This document shows, piece after piece, positions 35,094-39,571 of a stretch of 64,000 nt of DNA. The position numbers and the translations under genes are program-made. The notes beneath the pieces are model-generated. The model ran no database searches and had not been told where the DNA came from. It saw only the letters and a program-made list of their open reading frames with translations. How positions within the stretch are numbered: position 1 is the first letter of the stretch; every line of letters begins with the position of its first letter. Origin of the DNA: Alphaproteobacteria bacterium (GTDB taxonomy: Bacteria; Pseudomonadota; Alphaproteobacteria; Ferrovibrionales; Ferrovibrionaceae); contig JAFKFH010000005.1 in the NCBI GenBank assembly GCA_017307375.1, positions 372,001 through 436,000 of the forward strand, given 5' to 3'.

Positions 35094-36596
35094 TCAGGCC
35101 GCCTGCAACCGCGCGTCCCGCACCATCTGCCAGCGCGCGGCCTCGTCGGCCGTCATCGCCGGCCCGTCGATGGCCCCGAATGCCGCAGCGGCGGCGGCCA
35201 CGCGGGCCGGTGCATCGGCCAGGGCATCGGGTCCCGACAGCCGGAACGATACCGGCGACAGCGGCCCGAACAGCAAGGCCCGCTGCAGTTCCGGCCATTC
35301 GGCCAGCATCGGCTCGACCCCCGCACGGCGGGCGAACAGGATGGCCATGTCGTGCATCGTCACCGGTACGCGGCCGCCATGCCGCAAGCCGCTGCGGTCG
35401 GGCAACGGCGCCTTGCCGGCCCAGCCATAAGCGATCCAGCGCGCCTGCAATTCCAGAACCGGCAGCTGCGGACCGATCTGGTCGTAGAGGCCGAGGAAGG
35501 CGAGACCCGCGATATCGGGATGGAAGGTATGGTCGGCAAGATCGATGCCACCATCGCCCAGGCCCAAGGTCGCGGCATCGGGCGGATCGATGAATGGCAG
35601 CGCCAGCCGATATCCGGTGGCGAGCACGATGGCATCGATATCCTCGACCTGGCCGTCGGCAAAGGTGACGCACCGCCGGTCGATCGCGGCAATCCAGGGC
35701 CGCGGCCGGATGCGCCCCTCGGCCACCAGGGGCAGATAATGCTGCGACTGCGTCAGCCCGGCGGCGAAAAGGTCGTCATGCGGACGGGGCGCACCGAACT
35801 GCTCGGGACTACCGCTGGTCTTCAGCACGAAATCCTTCATGCCGGCAGCCAATGCCGCGGGCGGCAGGACTTCGCCGGCCAGCGCCGCCCAGCGGGTGAA
35901 GGCAAGATGATCGGCAGGCACCCCGGCCAGCAGCTTCTGCAGCACATAGCGCTGGCGACGGCTGGCCAGCGTCACGCCGGCCGCGCCGGCCATCGCCAGG
36001 TCCGACGCGATCTCCAGCGCACTGATCGAGCAGCCCGCCACCAGGACCTTCTGCCCGCGATAGGCCTCGGCACCGTTGTAGTCGAAGGCGTGGATGACGC
36101 CGCCGGCGCCGCCGAAGCTCTCGAGGCCCGCGATCGCCGGACGAACAGGCGTGTTCTGCCGGCCGGTCGCGACGACTACCCGGGCGAAAACCTCGGTGAC
36201 CGCCGTCTCGCCGCCGCGCCGCGAGGTGATCGCCCAGCGGCCACCTTCGGCCCGTGCCAGGCGATCGACCCGGGTCGATGTCCGGACCGCCCCGGCGCTG
36301 CCGGTCCTGGCAGCATAGCGCTCGAGATAGGCCTGCATCTCCACCGCGGTCGGATAGACCGCCGTGCCGGGGCCGTGGTCGAGGTCGCTGAACGCGGTCA
36401 GCACGCGGCTGGTATTGGTCCGCATGCCGGGCCAGACGCCGCTCATGGCCGAGCCGGCGTTCCACTGGCCGCCCGGACGCTCCGCCGCCTCGAACAGGAC
36501 AGGCGTGAAGCCCTGGCGGCGCAGCCAGGCCGCCGCGGCAAGTCCGCCGGGTCCGGCACCGATGATGGCTACGTGATGGTCGGGATGGATGGTCAT
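35094..36596 (-). CDS. Flavin-containing monooxygenase (class B type)
   Basis: 500 residues. FAD motif AIIGAGPGGLAAAAWL at the N-terminus, GRQNTPVRPAIAGL, and an NADPH motif VLVAGCSISALEIASDL where the usual GxGxSG is GCSISA. IVLATGYRLALPF matches the ATG-containing motif of FMO proteins. Probably N- or S-oxygenates a small amine or thioether, or acts as a Baeyer-Villiger enzyme. The ATG at 36596 has GGAGAG five bases upstream. The upstream region shared with a divergent regulator-like pair contains four phased TCCTAA repeats. Confidence 0.88.
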   Translation of the reverse strand: MTIHPDHHVAIIGAGPGGLAAAAWLRRQGFTPVLFEAAERPGGQWNAGSAMSGVWPGMRTNTSRVLTAFSDLDHGPGTAVYPTAVEMQAYLERYAARTGSAGAVRTSTRVDRLARAEGGRWAITSRRGGETAVTEVFARVVVATGRQNTPVRPAIAGLESFGGAGGVIHAFDYNGAEAYRGQKVLVAGCSISALEIASDLAMAGAAGVTLASRRQRYVLQKLLAGVPADHLAFTRWAALAGEVLPPAALAAGMKDFVLKTSGSPEQFGAPRPHDDLFAAGLTQSQHYLPLVAEGRIRPRPWIAAIDRRCVTFADGQVEDIDAIVLATGYRLALPFIDPPDAATLGLGDGGIDLADHTFHPDIAGLAFLGLYDQIGPQLPVLELQARWIAYGWAGKAPLPDRSGLRHGGRVPVTMHDMAILFARRAGVEPMLAEWPELQRALLFGPLSPVSFRLSGPDALADAPARVAAAAAAFGAIDGPAMTADEAARWQMVRDARLQAA

Positions 36597-36655
36597 GATG
36601 GCTCTCCGTCGGGTCGATGACGGCGATCGAATACGCAGCGGCACTTGCGCGCGCC

Positions 36656-36703
36656 TCCTAAAACCTTCCTAACTGCAGGGCGACGTTCCTAAATGGATCC
36701 TAA
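36656..36703. promoter_or_regulatory. Four phased TCCTAA direct repeats (11-20-11 bp spacing)
   Basis: TCCTAA occurs at 36656, 36667, 36687 and 36698, that is two pairs with an 11-bp repeat period, 20 bp between pairs. The period places all copies on nearly the same DNA face, as for OmpR/PhoB-type winged-helix regulators that bind direct repeats. The array starts 60 bp upstream of the flavin monooxygenase and runs across the first codons of the gene at 36693. No other run of this hexamer was noticed in the neighbouring intergenic regions. Confidence 0.65.
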
Positions 36704-37160
36704 GGGCATGGTGATCGACGACGAACTGGCCGACTTCGTGGAAAGTCCCGTCATGATCATCGTCGGCACCGCCGGGCCGGAGATCGCGCGGGCTGCTGGG
36801 GCCCGGGTCGACCGCGTCCAGGGCCGCATCGCCCTGCTGGTCTCGGCCTGGCTCTGGCCCGAGGCAACAACTGCGATGATGCCGGGCGATCGCATCGCCG
36901 CGACCTTCGCCCGGCCGGCCGACTATGTATCGCTTCAGGTCAAGGGCGTGGTCGAGCAGGCCGGGCCGGCAGACGACAGCGACCGGGCCCAGGCGATGCG
37001 CTATGTCGCCGCCGTGACCGCCACGCTCACCGAGCTCGGCCTCGCCCCCGAAATCATCGAACCCTGGCAGACCGACCGCCAGTTGGCGCGCATCGACATC
37101 CGGCCCGAAGCAGTGTTCGTGCAGACGCCGGGGCCGCAGGCCGGGCTGGCGCGACCGTGA
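36693..37160 (+). CDS. Flavin-binding split-barrel (PNPOx-like) protein
   Basis: 155 residues (or 150 from the ATG at 36708). Pyridoxamine 5'-phosphate oxidase-like fold: ADFVESPVMIIVGTAG, GRIALLVSAWLWPEATTAM, GDRIAATFARPADYVSLQVKG. Such proteins bind FMN, F420 or haem and some are sensors. The four-repeat control region overlaps its 5' end, so the downstream ATG may be the true start. Its TGA overlaps the GTG start of the next gene, which itself begins with a PNPOx-like domain; the two products are coupled and may interact. Confidence 0.75.
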   Translation: MDPKGMVIDDELADFVESPVMIIVGTAGPEIARAAGARVDRVQGRIALLVSAWLWPEATTAMMPGDRIAATFARPADYVSLQVKGVVEQAGPADDSDRAQAMRYVAAVTATLTELGLAPEIIEPWQTDRQLARIDIRPEAVFVQTPGPQAGLARP

Positions 37161-38476
37161 CGCCGACGCTCGCCGATCTCGCGGCCTGTTTCGAAGGGGT
37201 CATCCCCTCGATCATCGCCACGACGGCGGCCGATGGCACACCCAACATCTCTTACCTGTCGCATGTCGCGCGCGTCGACGAAAGCCATGTCGCGCTGTCG
37301 AACCAGTTCTTCTCCAAGACCGCGGCCAACCTGCGGGCCAATCCCCGGGCCGCACTGCTGGTCGTGGATGCCCTGAGCGGCCTGCAGTTTCGGCTCGACG
37401 TCACCTATCTGGACACGGTGACCGAAGGCCCGCTGTTCGACCGCATGGCCGCGGACCTGCGGGCGACCAGCGACCAGCTCGGCATGGCGACCGTAATGCG
37501 CCTGCGCGGGGTCGACATCCACCGCGTCGACGCGATCCGGGCCGTGCGTTCCGCTGTCATGCGCGCCCCGGCCCCGCCTGCCGCCGACCGCCTGCCGGCC
37601 CTGGCGGACCTTGCGGCCGGCATCGCCGCGGCCACCGACCTGGGCAGGTTGGTCGACGGCACGCTTGGCGCCCTGCAGCGCAATTTCGGCTTTGGCCACG
37701 CGATGATCCTGCTGGCCCAAGGCGACCGGCTGGTCACCATCGCCTCGACTGGCTATGATCGCAGCGGCATCGGTGCCGAAGTCGCCCTGGGGGACGGGCC
37801 GATCGGCATGGCCGGGCTCGCGCGGCGCACGCTCAGGATCAGCGACATGAGCCGGGCACGCCGCTTCGCCGCCGCCGTGGCCGCGACCAGCGCCGAGGAA
37901 AACCTGAGCCGCGAGATCGCCCTGCCCGGCCTCGACGGCGCGATGAGCCAGCTTGCCGTCCCGATCGTGGCGCAAGCCAGGCTGCGCGGCGTCCTGATGC
38001 TCGAGAGTGTGGCGCGCCTCGCCTTCACGCCCGCCGACGAACTGGCGATGACGATCGTCGCCGGCCAGTTGGGCGCCGCGCTCGGCGCCTTTGACGGCGA
38101 GATGCCCGAGACCGCCGAATTGCCGGCCGAGGGCACCGGCCCGTCCTTCACGGTGGTCCACCACAGCTTCGACGACAGCGTTTTCATCGGCGGCGACTAC
38201 ATCGTGAAGGGGGTGGCGGGCCGTCTGCTTATCGCCTTCCTGCGGGCCTATGTCGCCGACGGGCGGCAGCAGTTCTCCAACCGCGAAATCCGGCTCGACA
38301 CCTCGCTGCGCCTGCCCGAGTTCAAGGACAACCTGGAAACCCGGCTGCTGCTGCTGCAACGGCGGCTGGACGAGAAGGCGGCGCCGGTCAGGCTGGAACG
38401 CCCAGGCCGCGGGCGCATCCGCCTGTCCGTCACCGGCCGGCCGGTCCTGTCAGAGGGCGAGGCGCATCTGCGGTGA
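37157..38476 (+). CDS. PNPOx-like / GAF / winged-helix protein, probable one-component regulator
   Basis: 439 residues in three parts. 1-130: PNPOx-like split barrel (GVIPSIIATTAADGTPNISY, VALSNQFFSKTAANLRANPR). About 145-310: GAF domain (LGALQRNFGFGHAMILL, GDGPIGMAGLARRTLRI, LAVPIVAQARLRGVLMLES). About 335-425: a segment that reads like an OmpR-type winged helix, with VAGRLLIAFLRAYVADGRQQ, FSNREIRLD, NLETRLLLLQRRLDEKAAP and RPGRGRIRL in the places of the recognition helices and wing. The last match is by pattern only. GTG start inside the previous stop. The 3' end overlaps dinB by 27 bases. Confidence 0.75.
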   Translation: MTPTLADLAACFEGVIPSIIATTAADGTPNISYLSHVARVDESHVALSNQFFSKTAANLRANPRAALLVVDALSGLQFRLDVTYLDTVTEGPLFDRMAADLRATSDQLGMATVMRLRGVDIHRVDAIRAVRSAVMRAPAPPAADRLPALADLAAGIAAATDLGRLVDGTLGALQRNFGFGHAMILLAQGDRLVTIASTGYDRSGIGAEVALGDGPIGMAGLARRTLRISDMSRARRFAAAVAATSAEENLSREIALPGLDGAMSQLAVPIVAQARLRGVLMLESVARLAFTPADELAMTIVAGQLGAALGAFDGEMPETAELPAEGTGPSFTVVHHSFDDSVFIGGDYIVKGVAGRLLIAFLRAYVADGRQQFSNREIRLDTSLRLPEFKDNLETRLLLLQRRLDEKAAPVRLERPGRGRIRLSVTGRPVLSEGEAHLR

Positions 38477-39571
38477 CTCCGCCTCGCCCTCGGTATTGAG
38501 CGAGGACAGCGTGACGCCGAGCAGGCGCACGCCCTTTTCAATGGGAAACAAAGCCTGCAGCAGGGCTTCGACGATCCGGTCGACCTCGTCGCGACCGGCA
38601 ATCATCGACGGCAGGGTGCGGCTGCGGGTGATCGTCTCGAAATCGGCATAGCGCAGTTTCAGCGTCACGGTGCGGCCGCGCAGGCCGGACTTCTCGCAAT
38701 GGCGCCACACCTTGTCGACCAGGAGGCGGGTTTCGGCCCGCATCGCCTCGAAGGTCACCAGGTCGACCGAAAAGGTATCTTCGGCCCCGATCGACTTGCG
38801 GATGCGATCGGGCCGCACCGGGCGATGGTCGATGCCGCGGGCGACTCCGTAGAAGTACGGTCCGGACTTGCCGAAATGCTGCTGCAGGAAATCGAGCGGT
38901 CGTTCGCGCAGGTCGCGGCCGGTATGGATGCCCAGCGCCTTCATCCGTGCCGCGGTGGCCGGCCCGACGCCGTGGAATTTCTCGATCGCCAGACCTTCGA
39001 CGAAGGCCGCCCCCTCGCGCGGGGTGATCACGAACAGCCCGTCGGGCTTGCGGTGGTCGGAGGCCAGCTTGGCCAGGAACTTGTTGTAGGACACCCCGGC
39101 CGAGGCGGTCAGCCCGGTCTCGGCGCGAATGCGGGCCCGGATTTCCTCGGCGACCCGGGTTGCCGACGGGATGCCCTTCAGGTTCCCGGTGACGTCGAGA
39201 TAGGCTTCGTCGAGCGACAGCGGCTCGATGACCGGCGTGAATTCGGCGAAGATCGCATGGATCTGGCGCGAGACCGTACGATAGACGTCGAAGCGCGGGG
39301 GCACGAAGATCAGCTGCGGGCAACGTCGCCGCGCGGTGACGGACGGCATCGCCGACCGCACGCCGAACCGCCGCGCCTCGTAGCTTGCCGCGGCCACGAC
39401 GCCGCGCTCGCGCGAGCCGCCGACCGCCAGCGGTTTGCCGCGCAGTTCGGGATTGTCGCGCTGCTCGACCGAGGCATAGAAGGCATCCATGTCGATGTGG
39501 ATGACCTTGCGAACCACCTCGCCCCGCCCGGCCGCGTCCAGCGCCGATTCCACACTCTCCGCCGCGTCCAT
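38450..39571 (-). CDS. dinB: DNA polymerase IV (Y-family translesion polymerase)
   Basis: 373 residues, usual length. Catalytic Asp in HIDMDAFYASVEQRDNPEL, Asp-Glu in PLSLDEAYLDVTG; helix-hairpin-helix KFHGVGPATAARMKALGI; little-finger domain to the end. The C-terminal QMRLAL fits a sliding-clamp binding motif. No clear LexA box was found upstream. It converges with the PNPOx/GAF gene with a 27-bp overlap. Role: bypass of minor-groove adducts and stress mutagenesis. Confidence 0.97.
   Translation of the reverse strand: MDAAESVESALDAAGRGEVVRKVIHIDMDAFYASVEQRDNPELRGKPLAVGGSRERGVVAAASYEARRFGVRSAMPSVTARRRCPQLIFVPPRFDVYRTVSRQIHAIFAEFTPVIEPLSLDEAYLDVTGNLKGIPSATRVAEEIRARIRAETGLTASAGVSYNKFLAKLASDHRKPDGLFVITPREGAAFVEGLAIEKFHGVGPATAARMKALGIHTGRDLRERPLDFLQQHFGKSGPYFYGVARGIDHRPVRPDRIRKSIGAEDTFSVDLVTFEAMRAETRLLVDKVWRHCEKSGLRGRTVTLKLRYADFETITRSRTLPSMIAGRDEVDRIVEALLQALFPIEKGVRLLGVTLSSLNTEGEAESPQMRLAL

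Follow-up and report, generated by a model that had tools for sequence, protein, structure and literature searches.

The locus studied lies in a 64 kb stretch of alphaproteobacterial DNA, the whole of which is referred to here as the window. It comprises two plus-strand genes, a divergent minus-strand gene and, in the interval between them, four short direct repeats (Table 1). A preliminary description of this DNA had placed TCCTAA hexamers at 36656, 36667, 36687 and 36698, with spacings of 11, 20 and 11 bp; these positions proved exact. The flavin monooxygenase that it had named on one side of the repeats was recovered as an FMO-like protein encoded on the minus strand (PF00743, E = 5.4e-40), and the coupled gene pair on the other side was found to share 4 bp (GTGA, 37157-37160). 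A minus-strand gene at 38450-39571, to judge by its reading a Y-family DNA polymerase, stands tail to tail with the second gene of the pair, the two sharing 27 bp.

Table 1. Features of the locus, with positions in the window.
Feature	Position	Strand	Basis or remark
Output gene, FMO-like flavin monooxygenase	35094..36596	-	PF00743; start by eye from translation
Possible -10 element TATTCG, divergent promoter	36628..36633	-	Only TA conserved among loci
Operator box 1, CTCCTAA (predicted)	36655..36661	+	Sequence read; orthologue boxes
Operator box 2, TTCCTAA (predicted)	36666..36672	+	11 bp from box 1
Operator box 3, TTCCTAA (predicted)	36686..36692	+	20 bp from box 2, 31 bp from box 1
Operator box 4, ATCCTAA (predicted)	36697..36703	+	11 bp from box 3
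First gene, split-barrel protein ending QTPGPxAG	36708..37160	+	Orthologue alignment, profile comparison
Second gene, split barrel - GAF - OmpR-like winged helix (predicted)	37157..38476	+	Pfam, structure model
PNPOx_N split-barrel domain, residues 15-118	37199..37510	+	Pfam
GAF domain, residues 161-309	37637..38083	+	Pfam
C-terminal winged-helix domain, residues 331-433	38147..38455	+	Structure prediction
Putative recognition helix, residues 390-406	38324..38374	+	K390, T395 covary with operator

The TCCTAA hexamer occurs four times in the window, counting both strands, and all four copies lie inside 48 bp. Their number is ordinary (shuffled sequence contained a mean of 3.6 per window); their clustering is not. 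The arrangement TCCTAA-N5-TCCTAA was found, as an exact match, twice in the 7.54 Mb source genome, both times at this site. By comparison of the boxes, the 7-mer TTCCTAA describes the repeat unit better than the hexamer does. The repeats are direct, spaced by about one helical turn within each pair (11 bp), with 31 bp from pair to pair, and are predicted to form an operator. A wider search of the source genome allowing up to two mismatches gave 30 matches to the double box versus 144 to a reversed control, and no larger regulon is therefore claimed in this genome. Rfam models gave no match over positions 36500-36800. When aligned with seven orthologues, the first gene appears to begin at 36708, not at 36693, in which case all four boxes fall outside its coding region.

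Both genes of the pair had been read as encoding split barrels. For the second gene this was borne out by Pfam; for the first, Pfam gave no split-barrel match in the window protein, and the assignment came instead from profile comparison. In hhalign, 104 columns of the first-gene family profile could be aligned with the N-terminal domain encoded by the second gene (P = 9.7e-8), as against P = 0.42 for the GAF domain and 0.048 for the C-terminal domain, which served as controls. Two of eight first-gene homologues matched PNPOx_N at E 0.1, the best at 0.0018. The motif QTPGPxAG was invariant at the end of the first protein (8/8 sequences, chosen without regard to the motif). Where the sequence extends far enough ahead of the second gene (85 loci, two genomes being counted twice), a first gene directly precedes it in 84; none was found at L078. 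The search was for an upstream open frame of >120 codons containing TPG, so that in these loci the motif is present partly by construction. Because of this near-constant position, the first protein is taken to be a probable accessory partner of the regulator.

The second protein has 439 residues, and its full structural model had a mean pLDDT of 88.2. The GAF and PNPOx_N domains expected in it both scored above their Pfam cut-offs (49.4 bits versus 28.1 for PNPOx_N), and both were matched by all 69 aligned homologues at E 0.1. No receiver domain was found by Pfam in the window protein or in the 69 homologues. Candidate sensor domains (PNPOx_N and GAF) and a predicted DNA-binding winged helix thus lie on one chain, as in a one-component regulator. 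The nearest solved structure to the N-terminal split barrel, by profile, was the FMN-binding protein 3in6 (E = 3e-6), the haem-binding HutZ being a weaker match (E = 5e-4); the split barrel of the second protein is predicted to bind flavin, with haem, as in HutZ, a less likely cofactor.

In two other genomes of the class (loci L142, L146, L143 and L147, part of a set, L138-L147, that was not added to any count), a stand-alone split-barrel frame ends just before a gene for a GAF-class III cyclase, identified as a cyclase by Pfam in L142 and by eye in L143. This split-barrel frame is a relative of the N-terminal domain discussed above, and its position suggests that a split barrel plus a GAF domain may serve as a general input module. 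Two sequences considered as split barrel-GAF-cyclase fusions (G212 and G302) were rejected, since the split-barrel frame stops just ahead of the GAF-cyclase frame.

Fold searches with the whole second protein were swamped by the GAF domain, and the C-terminal domain was therefore folded on its own. The last 113 residues gave a pLDDT of 91.4 and the order bbb-a-b-a-a-bbb, a predicted winged-helix arrangement with antiparallel strands at the N-terminus, three helices and a hairpin at the C-terminus. The OmpR-type winged helix that the preliminary description had read into this C-terminus was indeed predicted, with OmpR/PhoB-type domains as the top structural matches. In VIA-align the model matched BaeR with Z 10.3 (rmsd 2.6, 96 aligned), SaeR and NsrR each with Z 9.1, PhoB 1qqi with Z 8.9 (rmsd 2.7 over 91) and PhoB on DNA (1gxp) with Z 8.0. 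The first 20 rows shown were all OmpR-type and spanned most of the domain, with its N-terminal strands; the first non-OmpR row was ScpB (Z 7.8), and a Z below 8 may reflect merely a common arrangement. Foldseek also placed BaeR first, but with E = 0.044, with ScpB and other winged helices interspersed and nothing at E 0.001. The corresponding profile check failed: Trans_reg_C (PF00486) matched none of the 69 homologues at E 0.1, which leaves the fold as a predicted one. A PDB profile search with the C-terminal domain gave no matches at E 10, and hhalign against the 27 OmpR-type domains of the same genome gave P = 0.018 (GAF control, 0.066). The structural models thus support a winged-helix fold, while membership of the OmpR/PhoB family is not supported by sequence.

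Residues in the putative recognition helix vary together with the boxes. In the alignment (from which L077, with a stop codon in its translation, was dropped), residue 390 was K or R in all 52 rows with at least one upstream TCCTAA, and residue 395 was T in 50 of them. In the 15 rows with no upstream TCCTAA, K390 was absent in 14 and A395 was present in 13. The exception at residue 390, L057, has the degenerate boxes TCCCTAA-N4-TTGCTAA; L085 has boxes, yet carries A395. On a tree of the second gene (quick maximum likelihood, 69 proteins, SH-aLRT support only), the rows lacking an operator form one clade plus L057, so that the association between helix and operator is essentially one event and suggestive only.

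The locus was compared with its relatives in a set of 89 loci: the best 80 of 546 stretches that code for a relative in a genome scan (E 1e-3), eight further full-length loci, among them the source genome's own locus, and the window. Partial matches (L009-L013) were dropped from all locus analyses. A divergent output gene was present in 67 of the 89 loci (65/87 once the doubles, the window with L001 among the FMO loci and L004 with L043 among the hemerythrin-like loci, are removed). It codes for an FMO in 23, a hemerythrin-like protein in 22 and an arylamine N-acetyltransferase (NAT) in 22. Pfam matches of representatives had E values of 3e-33 to 1e-47 for four NATs, 3e-45 for one FMO and 1e-6 to 3e-5 for three hemerythrin-like proteins, which scored respectively above, at and slightly below the cut-off. 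Identity to the reference NAT is 28% for L057 and 31% for L059 but 54-88% for the other NATs; the low values suggest separate capture.

Several further features of the output genes were seen. Among the NATs of L020-L060 and L087, those of the main group and of L087 carry Glu where those of L057 and L059 carry Asp, which we take to be the Asp of the usual catalytic triad. Genes of the YceI family adjoin the output gene in a number of loci (L020, L026, L036 and others; NC_007765.1), with all three output types, and a cupin gene lies beside the output gene in part of the NAT group.

The repeats are kept beside orthologues of the pair at the same spacing. This was assessed in 84 loci with enough upstream DNA, with box 1 to box 3 set at 30-32 bp and 60 first-order Markov resamplings per locus as shuffles; L001, a duplicate of the window, was left out, as were L070, L074, L076 and L084, which have short upstream DNA. 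Where the divergent gene encodes an FMO, a hemerythrin-like protein or a NAT (66 loci, or 65 if a genome present twice is counted once), the four-box score was in every case higher than all 60 shuffles; it was also higher than every control window taken downstream at that locus in 65 of them, L046 giving a tie. Among the 18 loci with no such divergent gene, the score exceeded the shuffles in three: L030 and L047, which have a divergent cupin gene, and L085, which has a hemerythrin-like gene downstream. The operator score was thus absent in 15 of the 84 loci with the pair, namely 10 loci that are beta- or gammaproteobacterial by record title or lineage, three from the window's class (L006-L008), the Oricola locus L077, and L067. 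A search for an 11-bp direct repeat of some other sequence in loci with no clear TTCCTAA (20 loci, five of them with some boxes) was abandoned as a lead, period 11 being no stronger than periods 8-25.

Within the NAT group, box 2 reads ATGTGCA in 14 of the 22 loci, with boxes 1, 3 and 4 mostly retained. On the tree of the 69 second-gene proteins the four labels change seven times. On starred branches there are three or more changes of the NAT label, gains and losses not being told apart, and the NAT locus L087, placed next to the hemerythrin group, retains a TTCCTAA operator. Comparison of the loci indicates that the predicted operator stays with the gene pair while the output gene changes. 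The gene itself is patchily distributed: within the family to which the window belongs, none of the 17 genomes, some of them incomplete, has it.

We consider it likely that the pair is a self-contained regulatory cassette, that is, a one-component regulator with its own operator that controls the divergent gene and probably itself. The split-barrel domain of the second protein, which probably binds flavin, would sense a signal together with the GAF domain. The winged helix, of predicted OmpR/PhoB fold, would occupy the four TTCCTAA direct repeats in two tandem pairs, three helical turns apart and on the same side of the double helix. A second split barrel would come from the first protein, which would probably pair with the first domain of the regulator in a heterodimer; split barrels usually form dimers. 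The array would lie next to the divergent promoter, at about the -35 position, and also at the promoter of the pair. Since it adjoins the putative divergent promoter and lies directly upstream of the first gene, the regulator would control the output gene, here the flavin monooxygenase, and probably its own operon; control of both is consistent with the position of the operator.

Activation of the output gene seems somewhat more likely than repression. All 62 loci that were scored (21 hemerythrin-like, 20 FMO and 21 NAT) have a minus-strand TA on the output side at 20-22 bp from box 1, the anchors having been set from the boxes alone and the count leaving out L004 (a duplicate of L043) and L019, L045 and L057 (low operator score). 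When three-base windows, 17 in all, were tiled, the two overlapping the TA site scored 32 and 48 of 62, and the remaining 15 scored 0 to 8. This conserved TA could belong to a -10 element. A fuller TA...T at 20-22 bp on the output side was present in just 3 of 63 loci, and scans of positions 36500-36900 gave no sigma-70 promoter and no terminator. In the window, GGAGAG at 36607-36602 precedes the FMO start on the minus strand. On the pair side, 17 of 63 loci have a TA...T that follows the first base of box 3 by 22-24 bp. The distance from the end of box 4 to the estimated start of the first gene, with starts picked by rule, is 11-52 bp in 38 other loci; in the window the predicted start is 4 bp past the box, which leaves little room there for a promoter of the first gene. 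The promoter reading is thus a weak one, too weak to dismiss the alternative that the second protein is a repressor of both promoters until a ligand or a redox change frees it. Such a repressor would fit an array that lies near or across both promoters and that in the window reaches the predicted start of the first gene. The fixed TA, together with the lack of a TTGACA-like element by eye, instead resembles the promoters of PhoB type, which depend on an activator; repression is accordingly judged a tenable possibility of less than even probability.

The boxes might also be the operator of a regulator encoded elsewhere, with the pair as one of its targets and the winged helix in some other role. 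OmpR-type domains are abundant in the source genome (27 matches), and the double box was found in genomes that lack the pair: among 385 genomes of the class, nine contained an exact TTCCTAA-N4-TTCCTAA, the protein being present in two of these and absent from seven, and a reversed control gave 11 matches. The motif is therefore no marker of the cassette by itself; where it lies is diagnostic. In ten hand-picked whole genomes, TTCCTAA-N4-TTCCTAA with at most one mismatch was found 13 times, in nine of the ten (reversed control, 9). By coordinate arithmetic, 11 of the 13 were known cassette operators; of the other two, one accompanied a further copy of the pair, in a Phenylobacterium genome, and one lay by unrelated genes. 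Against a regulator encoded elsewhere, then, the operator follows the pair across three unrelated divergent genes and accompanies its second copy in one genome, the exact double box occurs in the source genome at the cassette only, the operator is missing where the putative recognition helix differs, and none of the 27 OmpR-type matches falls, by coordinates, inside the window. We regard this explanation as unlikely. The second Phenylobacterium pair (L153, with boxes of its own, in the genome that also has L071) has as its divergent neighbour a 145-aa frame that by eye falls outside all three output families.

It is highly improbable that the C-terminal winged helix binds a protein and that the two genes encode, instead of a regulator, a flavoprotein system resembling an enzyme: ScpB-type winged helices do match as well (second in Foldseek), and the sequence similarity of the domain to DNA-binding domains is not significant, but the leading VIA-align rows are OmpR-type over most of the domain, the operator adjoins the gene, and basic residues are conserved in helix 390-406.

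The cassette reading invites comparison with several known systems. OmpR/PhoB-type domains bind direct repeats about one helical turn apart, and the operator, with direct repeats of 7 + 4 bp and hence a spacing of 11 bp, is like the pho box. The C-terminal domain is alike in predicted fold to the winged helices of BaeR, PhoB and SaeR; unlike these regulators, the second protein has no detected receiver, carries its sensors on the same chain and shows no detectable sequence similarity to them. ToxR and CadC, in which an OmpR-type winged helix works without a phosphorelay, were also among the structural matches (CadC 5ju7, Z 8.0; ToxR 8b4d, Z 7.0). Their DNA-binding domain is N-terminal in a membrane protein, whereas in the second protein it is predicted to be C-terminal, behind a split barrel and a GAF domain. 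CodY likewise combines a GAF sensor and a winged helix on a single chain, but is not known to have a split barrel or an accessory gene, and its winged helix and operator are different. The N-terminal domain resembles 3in6, HutZ and HupZ in profile and predicted fold; these are stand-alone proteins, whereas the split barrel here is joined to a GAF domain and a winged helix.

In the literature searched, which included little subscription content, no description of the protein or of its operator was found. A loose parallel is offered by OsdR of Streptomyces, whose predicted targets include a pyridoxamine 5′-phosphate oxidase and a hemerythrin gene (PMC5069765). Annotated plasmid records, where they name the genes, call them 'hypothetical protein', 'GAF domain-containing protein' or 'pyridoxamine 5′-phosphate oxidase family protein'. 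Neither one-component regulators nor OmpR-type domains are new in themselves; what is new, as far as that literature goes, is this set of domains on one chain, accompanied by a second split barrel and serving an output gene that varies.

The chances are about even that these loci represent a widespread class of regulator, in which a split-barrel pair forms a module that senses flavin or redox state, its readout passing through a GAF domain and a winged helix of OmpR type but unrelated sequence, with sensor and operator kept and the controlled gene exchanged. If so, a single chemical stress would be met in three alternative ways by the three outputs, and this would hint at the signal; that NAT, FMO and hemerythrin-like proteins could all answer chemical or oxidative stress is speculation. 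The loci would also offer a natural experiment, with one operator and sensor joined to three outputs, and the operator is short and, in its exact form, unique in the source genome. A role would be provided for a domain that has no Pfam match, split barrels would be added to the sensors of transcription factors, and many proteobacterial genomes would hold a dedicated sensor-regulator hidden under generic annotation.
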